A stretch of 64,000 bases of DNA, from the NCBI GenBank assembly GCA_010094045.1, contig ML986595.1:467988-531987 (forward strand), in the 5' to 3' direction. The notes below the pieces were generated by a model. That model had not been told where the DNA came from. It did no database searches and saw only the letters and a program-made list of their open reading frames with translations. The DNA comes from Lojkania enalia. Taxonomy: Eukaryota > Ascomycota > Dothideomycetes > Pleosporales. The position numbers and the translations under genes were made by a program. Below, piece by piece: positions 4,260 through 15,845 of the stretch (position 1 is the stretch's first letter; each line of letters opens with the position of its first letter).

Positions 4260-5060
4260 ATGACCCTCAGAGTAGAGCCGGCACACAACGAAGACTTGAT
4301 AAAGATCGTCCCCATCATTTTCGACGCATACGCAGGAAAGCATCCGTATATCAACGCAGTATTCCCTAACAACTTAACCGAAGATGGCCAAGAAAAGGCG
4401 CTGAAGAGAATCATCGGCATCGGAGCCAGCAGCGAAACCTCGCAATGGGAGAAAGTCGTTGACACGGCTACCGACCAAATAATCGGAGCCGCCATGTGGC
4501 TCATCTACAGAGAGAAGAAGCCTGAGGCGCACCATCTAGATGGGCCTGACGGCACTTGGGACAGCGACGCTGACAAGGAGTATGCACAACAGTTGTACAA
4601 GTCCTACGCAGCGGAAGAACAAGCATTCTGGAATTCGAATCATCTGCCATTAATGAGTACGTAATCGTTTCCCTATTCTTGATTGGGAGGGAGGCCGCAG
4701 TCGACCCAAAGTTCGGAGAGCAGGTAGATTGAAATATCACGCAGGTATCAACGCCATGGTCGTACTACGAAAGCATCAATTTAGAGGCGCTGCTTCGTTG
4801 TTGATGAAATCGGGACTGAAAATGGCCGATGAGGTCGGCGCAGCTGTGAGTTATACCTAAAAAATATGGATTCACTATATCTTTCGACTCATGTCCGTCT
4901 GCAGTGCATTGTTATCTCAACAGACGAAGCGCGATGGCTCTATGAGAAAGCAGGCTTCGTTGTTGATAAACATGTGACATTGCCTGTTCCAGAGAAGTTT
5001 GCTGATCGTCCTAAGGTGCGATTTTTTTACATGCATCGAGATAGGAGAGCACCCGAGTGA
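4260..5060 (+). CDS. GNAT-family N-acetyltransferase
   Basis: Acetyl-CoA-dependent N-acyltransferase of the GNAT superfamily; the acceptor is unknown. Exons 4260-4656, 4745-4845 and 4905-5060 give 217 residues. The N-terminal strand/helix pair reads MTLRVEPAHNEDLIKIVPIIF. The middle has AAMWLIYREKKPEAHH followed by a charged insert common in fungal members. The acetyl-CoA loop (motif A) is in exon 2: a strand INAMVVL, then RKHQFRGAASLLMKSG (R/Q-x-x-G-x-G/A type). Exon 3 supplies ACIVISTDEARWLYEKAGF, the classic motif-B region, and ends PKVRFFYMHRDRRAPE. The upstream frame is open for 70 further codons, but that part is GC-biased and not family-like, so the ATG after CCGCC at 4260 was chosen. 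It could act on a small molecule in the neighbouring accessory genes, but nothing in the sequence shows this. Confidence 0.85.
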
Positions 5061-5841: not shown

Positions 5842-6062
5842 TCATTTTGGTGGGGCAGGAGGGGTCAAGATCCGAGCATCAGCTGGTTCTCCTTCTGGAG
5901 TCTCGGGAAGGTGGACTGCCCCGTAACTATCCAAAGTGGTTCCTATCCTATGTTAGCACTCTGATGAGGCCTCAAAAGTAAATCACACGTACCTGGAACA
6001 GGTGCAGCAAAGGTGGATAATGCCATCAAGGAAAGTACACTGAGAGCCGCAAGCAAATTCAT
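5842..6062 (-). CDS. Small secreted peptide, 56 residues, beside UstYa-like gene
   Basis: Two exons, 5993-6062 and 5842-5942, join across a 50-bp intron. The intron has donor GTACGT, a GCTAAC branch-point-like box and a TAG acceptor. The product begins MNLLAALSVLSLMALSTFAA, a textbook signal peptide with an AXA-type cleavage site near residues 18-20. The mature part is about 36 residues, without cysteine, acidic and proline-rich. It contains one tyrosine in DSYGAVHLPE and ends PPAPPK. There is no KR (Kex2) site and no internal repeat. A TATATA stretch lies about 130 bp upstream on the coding strand. It is divergent from the UstYa-like gene (694 bp between starts). That layout suggests either a ribosomal-peptide precursor or a small secreted effector; neither is shown. 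The main doubt is whether so short a gene is real; the signal peptide plus a clean intron argue that it is. Confidence 0.55.
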
Positions 6063-6756
6063 GATGTCTCTTTGCAATTGGTTTCGTACGACAATGTAGT
6101 GCTGATGAGTGCGTAGTGGAAGATTGGGTTTGAAAGGTAGAGGGAACCAGAGAGGTCACGAAAGTATCGAACCACCAGAGACCCTTCAGAGGATATATAC
6201 TTCGCCTTTTTTTATCGCGAATCCTATATCTCACTCTCCGGAAGGAGTAATAAACGGCGTATAGACCATCCGTCAAATGCGGGGCAGTGTCATGCTTAGC
6301 TCTGAGCACAGTTGCCTTTTGCTCTGGAGAACCAATACCATCGCTGTTCCCAGGATATTATGCAAGAATATACTCCGGGCATCGGCCGTCACATGTCCTA
6401 GGGTCTGAATTCAATTTATATATATGAGAGAAACACTCCTGCGCTACAAAAACTTGGCCAATAGGGTATGAAGAGCGGGGCTTATGATACGAAATATTAG
6501 GGGAAGGCCGCTGAGACATAGCATCCTACCCGGGTATTGGGTATCAGTGTGCTGACTGGTGTCTGACGCGGATTAATATATGGAGGGTGTTGGTCATGCT
6601 CGCGCGAAACGGGTAATCATGTTGGTTGGCCGATGGCGGGGTAGTTGGGTACTTCTTTGGTCTACTGCTCCATCCTAGATACTAGAGAGATCCAGGTCAT
6701 CAATCTCAACCCGAGAAATCTTTAGGGAACCTCTTTTTTAACCATTATTGATACTT
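6063..6756. promoter_or_regulatory. Divergent promoter region of peptide and UstYa-like genes
   Basis: These 694 bp separate the start codons of the secreted-peptide gene (minus) and the UstYa-like gene (plus). A TATATA element near 6194-6200 is placed for the peptide gene. TATATA at 6417-6424 and AT-rich tracts further right could serve the other side. No repeated operator-like motif was found. Confidence 0.4.
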
Positions 6757-7782
6757 ATGATGGCCAGAGTGGATGAACAGAAGTATTCGTTACTGGGGGA
6801 CGAAGAAAGTCATGAGCAGCAGTCGTTCGAACCTACAAAGAAGCCGGGTTTACCTCAGTGCTATAGGTGGGCATGGCCATTATTGGTCATATCGTTGGTT
6901 TACTCTTTACTCCTTACGGGATATGTGCTGCATCCAATTTCCAGGCCGAACGCTCAGCTACCATGGAGTGCGTATTATTAAACTACTTGGGCAGCTGCAA
7001 AGCAACAACTAACTTGAAATATAGCGCCTGCAATGGATGGAAAGGCAGTAGAGTATAAATTAGAGGATATTGCAAATTTTCCAAGCTCGATATATTCTAG
7101 CTCGCCATCGCCGGAGGTGGACGAGGCATGGGAGAGACTTATTCAGCGTGAGTTAGGCCGTGGTACGGTTGATTGGAATATAATTCTCTAACAAAGCTCA
7201 ATTAGCTCTATATTATCCTGCGACCAAGGAAGAGCTTGAGCGAAATGGAGATGATCCAGATGTCATCATCCGACTGAAGGAAGGCGGGTACTTTGCCACA
7301 CTAGGCATATACCACGAACTGCATTGCATGGTCCGTATAAATATGGCCTCGAGCTGTATTTTCAAAAAATTTGCTTACATTCTCCAAGCGACGAATGTAC
7401 TGGCATCTCCACGAGGAACATTACTTCCCGAACCGCTCCGAAGCCGCCAAGCGAGGAGAAATTGCTCACCTCCGTTCGTTTAAACCACCCTCCCCCTCCA
7501 ATCGTACAAATTTTTAACTGCCCGCTAGGACACTGCATTGAATTAACGTTACGAACCTTCAAATGCACACCTAACACCGCTCTGTATTCCTTCCATTATG
7601 ACCCAAAGCGTGATACTGAGCCTTTCATAATCTCGACCGGTCAAAGAAATTGCATAAACTGGGATTTGTTCCATAGCTGGGCGAAGAATAGGGCTGTGGC
7701 TTATGATCCCCAGCCAGAGTTACTAGCGCCGGCATCAGTGTTTAGAGAGATGCATCTACCGGATCCGGTATCAAAGTGGTGA
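6757..7782 (+). CDS. UstYa-like (DUF3328) oxidase-type protein
   Basis: Member of the fungal UstYa/DUF3328 family, whose studied members act in ribosomal-peptide mycotoxin pathways (oxidative macrocyclisation of precursor peptides) and some other clusters. Five exons: 6757-6967, 7025-7147, 7206-7330, 7389-7473 and 7529-7782, giving 265 residues. After a cytosolic N-terminus comes one transmembrane helix (WPLLVISLVYSLLLTGYVL, about residues 43-61). Both diagnostic HxxHC motifs are present: HELHC at about 148-152 and HLRHC at about 180-184. The second is completed only by splicing exons 4 and 5. The conserved C-terminal block reads FKCTPNTALYSFHYD, then NCINWDLFHSWAKNRAV. The frame is intact, so the protein should be active. 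ATG codons at 6757 and 6760 are equivalent. It shares its upstream region with the small secreted peptide gene. Confidence 0.9.
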
Positions 7783-11732: not shown

Positions 11733-13631
11733 CTATACTTGCTCTGACCACGCAAAGGTGTATCCAAAGGGCATCCATTTAATCATGCTCTCTACGCGGC
11801 TAATGGATTCGTTTTTCACTTTAATAAGCTGTACGACCATATATGTGCTTGGAACATTCTGCGCCGGAGGTAGTGGGCCTGGATACGACGCCGGATAGTC
11901 TACTAGCGCAACTACAAGAACTAGTCCTGAGCGTACATCTGTGACTAAAACCCGGCGGTCACGGATGGTAGTCGTAGTGTTGAAGAGACCATTAGGATTG
12001 CTTCCATAACCATTCATCTGTGCGGCGCAAGTCAAGTTTCCCTGAACTCCGTTGTCACGCCTAACGCACGCAGCCGCGAAAGCAACTTCGGCAGAAGAGT
12101 GACGCTCTAGTCCATTTAAGTAAGCTTCGATCAATTGGGGATCAATGGCATTATGCTCGTCATTCTCTTCGACTATTGGCTCCAATGAACCAAGGTCATC
12201 GCCCTGCCACTCAATCGGCAACGGTGGGCGCATTAGAGTTTGCGTGCCACCTCTTTCACCACTCGATTCCGCTCGCACGGCAATTGCCTCAATTACAGTA
12301 ATCTTCCCCTTCTCAAGCTTGATCTGAAGAGCAAGAAGGCCTGGAGTGGCTTGTTCTTTAATCAAACCCCAGTAAGCTGCTGTTCCCATGGCAGGGTTAG
12401 AAAATTTCGCTGCGTGCCCGTTACTACCTGGTTTTGAAACATAGGTAATAGTTTGCCAGAGCCCATCCCCCAAAGCTAGAAATTGGCCATTCTCGGAATA
12501 TCTAACTCCTTGTGCTAATGGTAATTTAGAAGTGTCGTTATTGAGTAATGCCTCTAGCACTTGATCGATCAAGCCGCTACTATTGAATTTCGTGCCTTCC
12601 AAACAGGCATAGTTGCACGGATCGGGTGCTGTAACACTTGTGCCAGTTCCACGTAAATCAACCGACTCGCCAGCGTCGAATGCTGTGCGCATGCCGTAAG
12701 GTACCTCGGTCAAGGTCATTTCAATTCGGAAAAGCTTCTCACCGCGCAAACGGAAAGCTTCAGAAGCCGCCAACGTTCGTGGAACATCAAAGTATGGGGG
12801 AATCGGATTAGAGGTGCCATTTACACTAGGGAGCTCACGAACGGTCCCATTATGATCGAATATGGTGATTGCAAAAACCGCTTGGCGCTCCTCGTCCACG
12901 ACTGGATACCTACGATCGCGGATCTCCGTGACGAAGCCCAAGAAACCCGTCTGAAACTGGGCTTCGCATCCCAACGATGCAAAGCTTGTGTCATTAGAGT
13001 GACCGTAAGGGTCACCATTCCGCTGATTGGTCGTCTGGAGCCCATCTTCTAATCGGTTACAATCCTTGTCGAAGAATGAGTAATCGCCTTTCGGGTCGTT
13101 GCGTTCCATGCCAGTATAGTACTTATTTGTTTGTGTAATGAGTCTTTCACGCGATATCCTCTGCTCGAGCGGTACAGCCTCTAACCACACAGGTTCTGGG
13201 ACCGTCATGTTCTCATAGCGAGCAGCCCCGATCGCGTCGCGAGTAATTTGAGTCTCGATTTCACTGACTCTCCCATCGTCCTCCACCCTAAGGCGTACAA
13301 CGTAGATTATGCCAACGCCATTTTCGGTCATGGTCGTGATAGCGGCCACTTGTCTAGACTCGGGGTCAGAGAACACGTGGTTGTATTTGCCGAGTTTTCC
13401 CGCGATTTTCCATTCCCCTTCTCCTAACTTGAGTTTTTGACTATTCTCGACATATATAACATCCGGTGTGGTAGGAAGCCTGGATGGATCATGAGCTACC
13501 ATAGCATTCAAGAAGTCTGAGAGGATGCCTTCTAAGCACAATCGATCGCAGGATGGTGCTTCATCTTGAGCAGAGGCAATGGTTACTATCCACGAGGCTG
13601 CGGTAACGAGTATCGTGAAGAAAGGCCTCAT
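11733..13631 (-). CDS. Secreted protein with two tandem DUF8021 domains
   Basis: Single-exon gene, 632 residues from the ATG at 13631. The N-terminus MRPFFTILVTAASWIVTIAS is a signal peptide; starting there is preferred over an in-frame ATG 21 codons upstream, which would bury it. Two homologous halves follow. The first opens CDRLCLEGILSDFLNAMVAHD with VENSQKLKLGEGEW. The second opens CNYACLEGTKFN, then LIDQVLEALLNNDTSKLPLA and YSENGQFLALGDGLW. Each half carries the NTF2/SnoaL-like layout described for DUF8021 fungal proteins, and in each a cysteine-containing segment precedes an IRDRR motif (TEIRDRRYPV; TTIRDRRVLV). Several N-x-S/T sites fit secretion. Activity is unknown. It is convergent with the decayed gene to its left, 200 bp away. 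Confidence 0.82.
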   Translation of the reverse strand: MRPFFTILVTAASWIVTIASAQDEAPSCDRLCLEGILSDFLNAMVAHDPSRLPTTPDVIYVENSQKLKLGEGEWKIAGKLGKYNHVFSDPESRQVAAITTMTENGVGIIYVVRLRVEDDGRVSEIETQITRDAIGAARYENMTVPEPVWLEAVPLEQRISRERLITQTNKYYTGMERNDPKGDYSFFDKDCNRLEDGLQTTNQRNGDPYGHSNDTSFASLGCEAQFQTGFLGFVTEIRDRRYPVVDEERQAVFAITIFDHNGTVRELPSVNGTSNPIPPYFDVPRTLAASEAFRLRGEKLFRIEMTLTEVPYGMRTAFDAGESVDLRGTGTSVTAPDPCNYACLEGTKFNSSGLIDQVLEALLNNDTSKLPLAQGVRYSENGQFLALGDGLWQTITYVSKPGSNGHAAKFSNPAMGTAAYWGLIKEQATPGLLALQIKLEKGKITVIEAIAVRAESSGERGGTQTLMRPPLPIEWQGDDLGSLEPIVEENDEHNAIDPQLIEAYLNGLERHSSAEVAFAAACVRRDNGVQGNLTCAAQMNGYGSNPNGLFNTTTTIRDRRVLVTDVRSGLVLVVALVDYPASYPGPLPPAQNVPSTYMVVQLIKVKNESISRVESMIKWMPFGYTFAWSEQV

Positions 13632-14705
13632 AATCGCTAGGGTCGAGCGAGGCTTAGCGATCTTGAAAATGGCTTCTTTCCCTTTGGAGATCAATCTGAT
13701 CTGCAGAGAGCAAACAGACTCAGATAAATGTTCAAACCGTTCAACGCTCTTCGAACAGTTTACAATTCATAGTGCGGGGTTACAAGAAGTATTATGCAAT
13801 GAGTAACAGATCTTTTTCTGCAACCACCTTTATCCGCATAGGATAGCTAAGTCTGCACCACTTTGGGATAGATCATTTATTTAACCTTCGGGATTTAAGC
13901 ATAAAGTAATCCGGCATTTATATGCCCCACGTATCCCCTAGCCCCACATAAAGACGTCAAAAATCAGTTACTGTAGAATGAAGCGAGGAAGTTTCTTTTA
14001 GATTAGAAAGTTTCAGGATAGTATGTTAGATAATATTTAATATAATATTTAATTCAGCACTGTAAGAGAATTTTTCAAGTTATTTAAATTAACTAAACGG
14101 CCTTGACAGCCCCTAGATGCTAAAAGTTGAAAGACGAACATCGCATTATGCCTATCTCGGCCACTGGTGTGATTAGAATTGATTGTTGACATGTATCAAC
14201 TCGAATAATTGTTTGTAGTGACAGTCCTATCACATCGCCGGCATCCGGATTAAAGCCCTACAGTCCTAGAATACCGCAATATTTCTTTAGTGGTCCGATT
14301 ACATTCTTGTGAATTCAACGCCCTATAATCAGCCCTGTGCCCGCGAAGAAGAACCAATCCACAGCGGAAACACACTCACCAGCGCCATTGTTACGTACAT
14401 TTTGGGACCACTTTAGCGAGGCCATAAGTCACAAGGCTTATTCTGTTTCCTGACCCAGGGCCTGTGCTGAAATATACGCATTTTTAGCAGCTCGTGATAA
14501 AACCCACTAGCTAGTTTAGTATATATGCGTTTGTGACTGCACAAAATAGCTACCCCGCTATCAAAATTTGAAACCAAGCCCGATCTAGTCACTTCAATCA
14601 TGCAGCGAGATTGGCGTCAGTTGCTCCCATATCCCAAATGAACTATCTTATTCATTCAGCTATCACTTGCTTAGTTCCCCAAAACCGGGGCTTTCGGTTC
14701 GCTCA
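13632..14705. other. AT-rich divergent intergenic region
   Basis: Lies between the DUF8021 gene start and the repeat array in front of the methyltransferase gene. It includes a very AT-rich stretch (about 14010-14050, TAATATTTAATATAATATT). No coding structure was seen. Confidence 0.45.
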
Positions 14706-14879: not shown

Positions 14880-15845
14880 ATGGAGTCTAGTCAGATTTAC
14901 CAAGAGGTTTCGAAGCACTACAGCAGCATCGCGAATGCTGCCGAGAATGCCGAATACAGTCGCAAAGTTGCTGTAGCGTTCGGCTACTCCGAAGAAGAGC
15001 TCGCTGCAATTCCTCGGGATGCAAATCTGGGGGTCAGCTGCGGGAACCCTGTTGCTCTTGCAAACTTGAAAGAGGGAGAAACTATCATTGATCTCGGAAG
15101 TGGCGCGGGATTTGATGTCTTCCTTGCTGCTAAACGCGTTGGGCCGACTGGAAAAGCCATTGGTGTTGATATGAACCGAGTAAGTCTATAAGTTATTCGG
15201 CCATTAATAGATAAGCACTTGACTTAGATGGGATCAGGACATGCTTACTCGTGCCAACCGAAATCTCGACAGATCGACACTGACTAACATTAGCTTCGTC
15301 GAATCGCAAATTACTTCCATAGCGCTAAAAGGTCAGATCGCGAACTGCATTATCTCCAACTGTGTCATAAACCTGGTACCTCAAGAGCAGAAGCATCGGG
15401 TATTCGAGGAGATGTTCCGATTGCTGAAACCGGGCGGCAGAGTCGCCATTTCCGACATTCTAGCCAAGATGTCACTTCCTGATGACCTAACCAAGAACCT
15501 CGCAGCTTACGTGGGTTGCATCAGCGGCGCTAGCGAAGTGGCTGAGTACGAAAAGTGGCTCCATGATGCTGGCTTTGTTGGTATAAAGATTGTGGATACC
15601 GGCGCCGACCTGAACGTTTACCGAACGGCAGACAAACCTGAGATTGCTTGCTGTGCGGGCCAAACCTCACCCGCGAAAGATGAGAAGGTTGCAAGCCCTT
15701 GTTCTACAGCGGATGTGTATGCAGATATGGATCTGAATCAGTGGGCAGGTTCGTAATATAACCTTTTTGCGTGATTTGAAATGCCTCTAAATACTAACAA
15801 AGCTCATGACTAGGTTCTTACAAGATATTTGCTCTAAAGCCGTAG
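14880..15845 (+). CDS. arsM: Arsenite S-adenosylmethionine methyltransferase (ArsM/AS3MT-like)
   Basis: Transfers methyl groups from S-adenosylmethionine to trivalent arsenic, giving methylarsenicals. Exons 14880-15179, 15238-15748 and 15814-15845 give 280 residues; the last exon encodes only [13 protein letters not shown] motif I is DLGSGAGFD at 71-79, followed by GKAIGVDMN at about 91-99. The family cysteines are in place: Cys54 in GVSCGNP, Cys142 in NCVINL and Cys194 in YVGCISGA; Cys238-239 follow in [19 protein letters not shown] (about 162-174) is the usual post-motif region. The GVSCGNP context, preceded by AAIPRDANL, separates it from generic class-I methyltransferases. The frame is intact. 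Four phased repeats lie directly upstream. Another methylated substrate cannot be excluded, but the cysteine set favours arsenic detoxification. Confidence 0.9.

Follow-up and report, generated by a model that had tools for sequence, protein, structure and literature searches.

Within a 64,000 nt window of the Lojkania enalia (Pleosporales) genome, a gene for a small secreted peptide lies head-to-head with a gene of the UstYa (DUF3328) family, raising the question of whether the peptide is the substrate of the enzyme. The surveys for UstYa-type RiPPs consulted here search for core repeats flanked by Kex2 sites (PMC7329392, PMC6339444, PMC9632046): in the accessible text of these papers, precursors are defined by Kex2-processed repeats (PMC7329392), or by the presence of at least one tandem repeat lying between kexin sites (PMC9632046). 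DUF3328 gene counts are described as highest beside repeat-precursor genes in the available part of one study (PMC7329392), and the available part of another describes these proteins as being used in non-ribosomal and polyketide pathways as well (PMC12048977).

The UstYa gene (6757-7782, plus strand) has five exons (6757-6967, 7025-7147, 7206-7330, 7389-7473 and 7529-7782) and encodes 264-265 aa, with the start at either 6757 or 6760; the product is identical to CC78DRAFT_111712 of L. enalia except for the first methionine. It scores 126.9 bits against PF11807, for which the cut-off is 25, and the match covers positions 14-220 of the 220 in the profile. The first HxxHC motif, HELHC, is encoded within exon 3 (7313-7327), whilst the second, HLRHC (7467-7536), is split by the intron at 7474-7528 and arises only once exons 4 and 5 are spliced together. 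In both motifs the two histidines and the cysteine are invariant in all six aligned proteins, these being the window UstYa and the five relatives returned by the search. Orthologues of the enzyme occur in Patellaria atrata, Pyrenochaeta sp. DS3sAY3a, Amniculicola lignicola and Periconia macrospinosa. An AlphaFold model of low confidence (mean pLDDT 52.9) has helices at residues 35-58, 144-160 and 171-194, both HxxHC motifs falling within helical segments and a further helix coinciding with the single predicted transmembrane stretch; given its confidence, the model was too weak to be used as evidence. Hence the claim of the sequence-only reading, that an intact DUF3328 gene with both motifs is arranged head-to-head with the peptide gene, is borne out by the profile score and by the two motifs.

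The start codons of the two genes are separated by a 694 bp divergent intergenic region (6063-6756), beyond which the peptide gene occupies 5842-6062 on the minus strand. Splice enumeration reproduced the two-exon, 56-residue secreted peptide gene with a 50 nt intron that had been read from the sequence, and so confirmed that observation as a gene model. From the ATG at 6062, a 70 nt first exon (5993-6062) encodes the signal sequence and ends in phase 1; the intron (5943-5992) has a GTACGT donor, a GCTAAC branch-like site and a GATAG acceptor, and reads GTACGT...GCTAACATAGGATAG from 5992 to 5943; and a 101 nt second exon (5842-5942), ending in TGA, encodes the mature part with its single tyrosine. 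The product of this putative RiPP precursor gene is MNLLAALSVLSLMALSTFAAPVPG/TTLDSYGAVHLPETPEGEPADARILTPPAPPK, and the candidate secreted stretch is APVPGTTLDSYGAVHLPETPEGEPADARILTPPAPPK. There are two AGs in the acceptor end, CATAGGATAG: use of the first, close to the branch-like site, leads to an early stop, and use of the second keeps the frame. Unspliced, the open reading frame stops after 39 aa, and alternative GT-AG models from the same ATG give products of 46-59 aa. A search for longer models, in which the splice rules were tightened and as many as three introns were permitted, gave seven, none exceeding 56 aa, hence the gene does not appear to be the 5' end of a larger one.

Signal peptides were called with a crude rule of our own rather than SignalP, which here places the cut after residue 16; by eye, it falls after residue 19. 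The mature peptide contains one tyrosine, no cysteine and no repeat. None of the pairs KR, RR, KK and RK occurs in the 56 aa, which counts against the peptide being a UstYa substrate. A TATA-like stretch that would serve the peptide gene can be seen by eye near 6190-6205 in the divergent promoter region; a search of these 694 bp for shared motifs gave nothing convincing, and found no striking repeat.

Convergent with the peptide gene is a three-exon GNAT acetyltransferase gene (4260-5060, plus strand), the 217 aa product of which is identical to CC78DRAFT_594749; its three other database relatives are exon fragments with 71-75% identity over 61-65% of the length. The suggestion that this enzyme might tailor the peptide did not gain support. 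The gene itself is real and annotated, and the only matches to it elsewhere in the genome at E<=0.001 are on contigs C188, C70 and C22, none of which carries a UstYa gene; GNAT was therefore rejected as a marker of the cluster, and may be a plain neighbour of the peptide and UstYa pair. Domain tests, confined to the window itself, covered 17 of the 32 frames of at least 150 aa in its 14-64 kb part, all of them short of 55 kb; none of the frames tested matched a tyrosinase, peptidase or transporter in Pfam, a point against the substrate reading, and no other dikaritin enzyme was seen in them. A scan of unspliced frames across the whole window and the 20 kb to its left found no repeat-type precursor nearer to the UstYa gene. 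The same scan detected one repeat precursor elsewhere in the genome (on contig C81) but missed another that is split between exons (on C167), so it would not catch every such gene nearby. Also present in the window are a class I methyltransferase-like frame at 15223-15756 on the plus strand (PF13847, E 5.7e-15), 7.4 kb from the UstYa gene, and a 677-codon frame at 11733-13766 on the minus strand, which by eye has a signal-peptide-like sequence near its start and two similar halves, and which has no Pfam match.

The pairing was tested inside the L. enalia genome, in which 25 Pfam matches and the matches of a further search were merged by hand into 19 UstYa genes; this is a lower bound, and includes some partial or broken genes (that on C25 matches 32 model positions only). 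In the 2 kb zones upstream of these genes, 34,977 of 38,000 bases were covered. A divergent signal-peptide gene was found 0.4-1.2 kb upstream of seven of the 19, on C18 (the window), C62, C81, C156, C2, C5 and C167, the distances being from start codon to start codon and measured by eye. Two of these partners are Kex2-repeat precursors: a 124 aa product on C81 (about 0.7 kb from its UstYa gene), in which five SPIESDFY units follow a variant one, with KR joints, and a 115 aa product on C167 (about 1.2 kb), which has three ADVATVLIGVAD units with KR sites and is modelled with four phase-1 introns. The other five are non-repeated. Neither the window peptide nor the 51 aa partner on C62 (about 0.4 kb; MQLVTLILVLLPLTFAGPVAVS then LKGRDGAEGFASYVDPVVVKYNADAMDRV) has any dibasic site, whilst a single KR is found in the partners on C2 (55 aa, 0.7-0.8 kb) and C5 (61 aa, about 0.5 kb), and a single RKR in that on C156 (79 aa, about 0.6 kb from the UstYa gene placed at 95.8 or 97.3 kb). 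The preferred splice models, which are our choice among alternatives that include phase 0 or 2 for C18, C62, C156, C2 and C167, give every one of the seven a phase-1 first intron. It lies at nt 67-73 in six of the seven (67, 67, 70, 70, 70 and 73); in C5 its position is nt 112. Five of the partners were yielded by a scan for the class; those on C167 and C5 were first spotted by eye in looser lists. No convincing divergent partner was found at the remaining 12 UstYa genes, two of which have weak candidates.

Several features of these loci were recorded alongside the survey. The dikaritin-type Kex2-repeat precursor on C81 (L039:8340-8765, minus strand) is head-to-head with a UstYa gene at L039:9445 (plus strand), and a second UstYa gene lies about 2 kb beyond the first. 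On C167 (L030:1964-2600, plus strand), the model gives the repeat units exons of their own, delimited by phase-1 introns. On C156 there are two UstYa genes, near which phenylalanine/histidine ammonia-lyase-, AMP-ligase- and fungal rhodopsin-like genes were noted by eye, as were two similar-looking secreted proteins side by side (L045:5477 and L045:6851) near the UstYa gene and its peptide. The same contig encodes a 55 aa tyrosine-containing secreted peptide with a phase-1 intron at nt 73 (L044:8522, minus strand); this was rejected as an eighth partner, being about 5.5 kb downstream of a C156 UstYa gene with other genes between.

Genes of this architecture are enriched upstream of UstYa genes. 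In a narrow class, having a signal exon, a phase-1 intron at nt 61-79 and an intron length of 44-62 nt, five starts lie within 2 kb upstream of UstYa genes on the opposite strand, where 0.53 would be expected at the density found in other sequence and 0.11 in shuffled sequence. The Poisson probability of five against 0.53 is 0.0002 (0.002 without the window, and 0.016 without the window and C81), and the class, found at 5/19 genes, was matched in 0/2000 sets of 19 random anchors; all of these values apply to a class whose bounds were fixed after the examples had been seen. With the anchors placed regardless of promoter or intergenic position, as they were in every comparison, 0/2000 sets reached the count for phase-1 introns at nt 61-79 when introns of up to 75 nt were allowed (6/19 genes), 4/2000 that for phase 1 at nt 52-130 (7/19), 13/2000 that for any phase (9/19), 115/2000 that for phase 0 (4/19) and 694/2000 that for phase 2 (3/19). 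The genes with phase-1 introns at nt 52-130 are exactly the seven partnered UstYa genes. The phase 0 and phase 2 counts are mostly alternative splice models of the starts of these same partners, and the only genes that they add outside the seven are the second on C81, for phase 0, and the first on C156, for phase 2.

On these comparisons, we are inclined to view the 56 aa product as a non-repeated, single-core precursor of a ribosomal peptide, oxidised by the divergently encoded UstYa. This is the simplest reading because the orientation, the nearness to UstYa, the signal exon and the intron phase are all held in common with two repeat precursors. Taken as a whole, the earlier interpretation is thus partly supported at the level of gene structure: the partnership of peptide and enzyme is strengthened by the recurrence of the layout at seven of 19 UstYa genes, two of them with Kex2-repeat precursors, and a single core fits with the existence of a second dibasic-free peptide on C62, whilst the proposed independence from Kex2 holds as far as the lack of dibasic pairs in the sequence is concerned. 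Such a putative precursor would escape repeat-based searches.

If this reading is correct, the peptide and UstYa genes would be co-expressed from the 694 bp region, and the precursor would enter the secretory pathway, where it would lose some 16-20 residues to signal peptidase. The UstYa, as a membrane-anchored and copper-dependent enzyme, would then use its lumenal domain to oxidise a side chain in the remaining 33-40 residues, either by ring closure on the tyrosine or by hydroxylation; that the tyrosine is the residue modified is a guess. Release of the core would have to depend on proteases that differ from the dibasic-cutting Kex2, for example through dipeptidyl trimming of AP-VP and cleavage after DAR, both guesses modelled on other fungal peptides. 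Each precursor would give rise to one copy of the core.

Three other explanations of the locus were considered. The best of them, which we nevertheless think unlikely, is that the gene is real and encodes an ordinary small secreted peptide, of a signal or effector-like kind, which shares the promoter region with a UstYa gene whose substrate is something else. The peptide, which lacks dibasic sites, repeats and cysteine and has only one tyrosine, would suit such a role; DUF3328 enzymes are also used outside RiPP pathways, and small secreted genes with a signal sequence followed by an intron may be common in fungi. However, this does not account for the enrichment of the architecture upstream of UstYa genes, nor for its being common to two repeat precursors.

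Less likely still is that the peptide reading frame is a chance one, from which nothing is translated. The codon bias of the mature part lies inside the upper non-coding range, with 12% of non-coding stretches scoring as high and 53% of coding stretches scoring as low or lower, and so does not discriminate between the two. No homologue scored among 5.8 billion proteins, in a search in which candidates were limited to lengths of about 31-98 aa, and a search of the L. enalia genome for paralogues matched only the two exons of the gene itself. The peptide is also missing from the searched annotation, which includes the neighbouring UstYa and GNAT genes, an absence that counts against the substrate reading too. 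Against chance, when the sequence was scanned by a crude method, spliced secreted peptides of 50-100 aa turned up once in the real 64 kb and just twice in ten shuffled windows of this length, and the intron has a good donor and a branch-like site, in addition to the same phase and position as in the two repeat precursors. The remaining explanation, that the UstYa serves a non-peptide or non-ribosomal pathway and has its true partner genes elsewhere, has in its favour the presence of DUF3328 proteins in the cyclochlorotine, astin and atpenin pathways (as described in the available portions of PMC12435403 and PMC12048977), but is improbable given that no PKS- or NRPS-like domain was found among 28 raw window frames and three spliced models.

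The substrate reading can be set beside several known systems. As in the dikaritins (of the ustiloxin, phomopsin and asperipin-2a type), a precursor with a signal peptide adjoins a UstYa with two HxxHC motifs, but the window peptide lacks their repeated cores and dibasic sites; the accessible text of PMC12048977 indicates that asperipin-2a likewise involves a single UstY. The C81 and C167 precursors resemble Kex2-processed repeat proteins (KEPs) and share with the window gene a similar signal exon, a phase-1 intron and the head-to-head arrangement with UstYa, whereas the window peptide is without the repeats that published searches require (at least three, according to the available text of PMC6339444). 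CctR, a copper-dependent DUF3328 hydroxylase, may resemble the window UstYa in its single transmembrane helix and two HxxHC-bearing helices, as far as the low-confidence model of the latter goes; however, the portion of PMC12435403 available gives its substrate as a non-ribosomal cyclic peptide, and puts forward an orientation of this copper enzyme towards the organelle lumen. Lichen RiPP clan R2, as presented in the accessible part of PMC12048977, also has one UstY homologue, GNAT genes and no repeated precursor found, but differs in having many GNAT copies and an unnamed precursor, where the window has one GNAT gene and a specific candidate.

For the lichen clusters that combine UstY and GNAT genes without repeats, the same part of that paper counts a single core peptide among the possibilities, hence the idea of a single-core precursor is not new. 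In the open-licence PMC literature, which excludes most subscription journals, we found no description of the window precursor, and the name Lojkania enalia was absent from the matching papers. What is added here is a named precursor gene with a shared gene plan.

More speculatively, it is possible that the UstYa enzymes of L. enalia, and perhaps of fungi at large, act mostly on short, repeat-free precursors that are built to a common gene plan (a 67-73 nt signal exon, a phase-1 intron and a head-to-head arrangement with UstYa) and are invisible to repeat mining, although we hold this wider proposal as doubtful. The plan with phase-1 exons could be ancestral, with repeat precursors having evolved from it through duplication of exons, a history suggested by the four phase-1 introns modelled in the C167 gene. 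The gene-structure rule, comprising a signal exon, a phase-1 intron and divergence from UstYa, offers a way to name missing precursors, through which orphan UstYa genes become directly testable.
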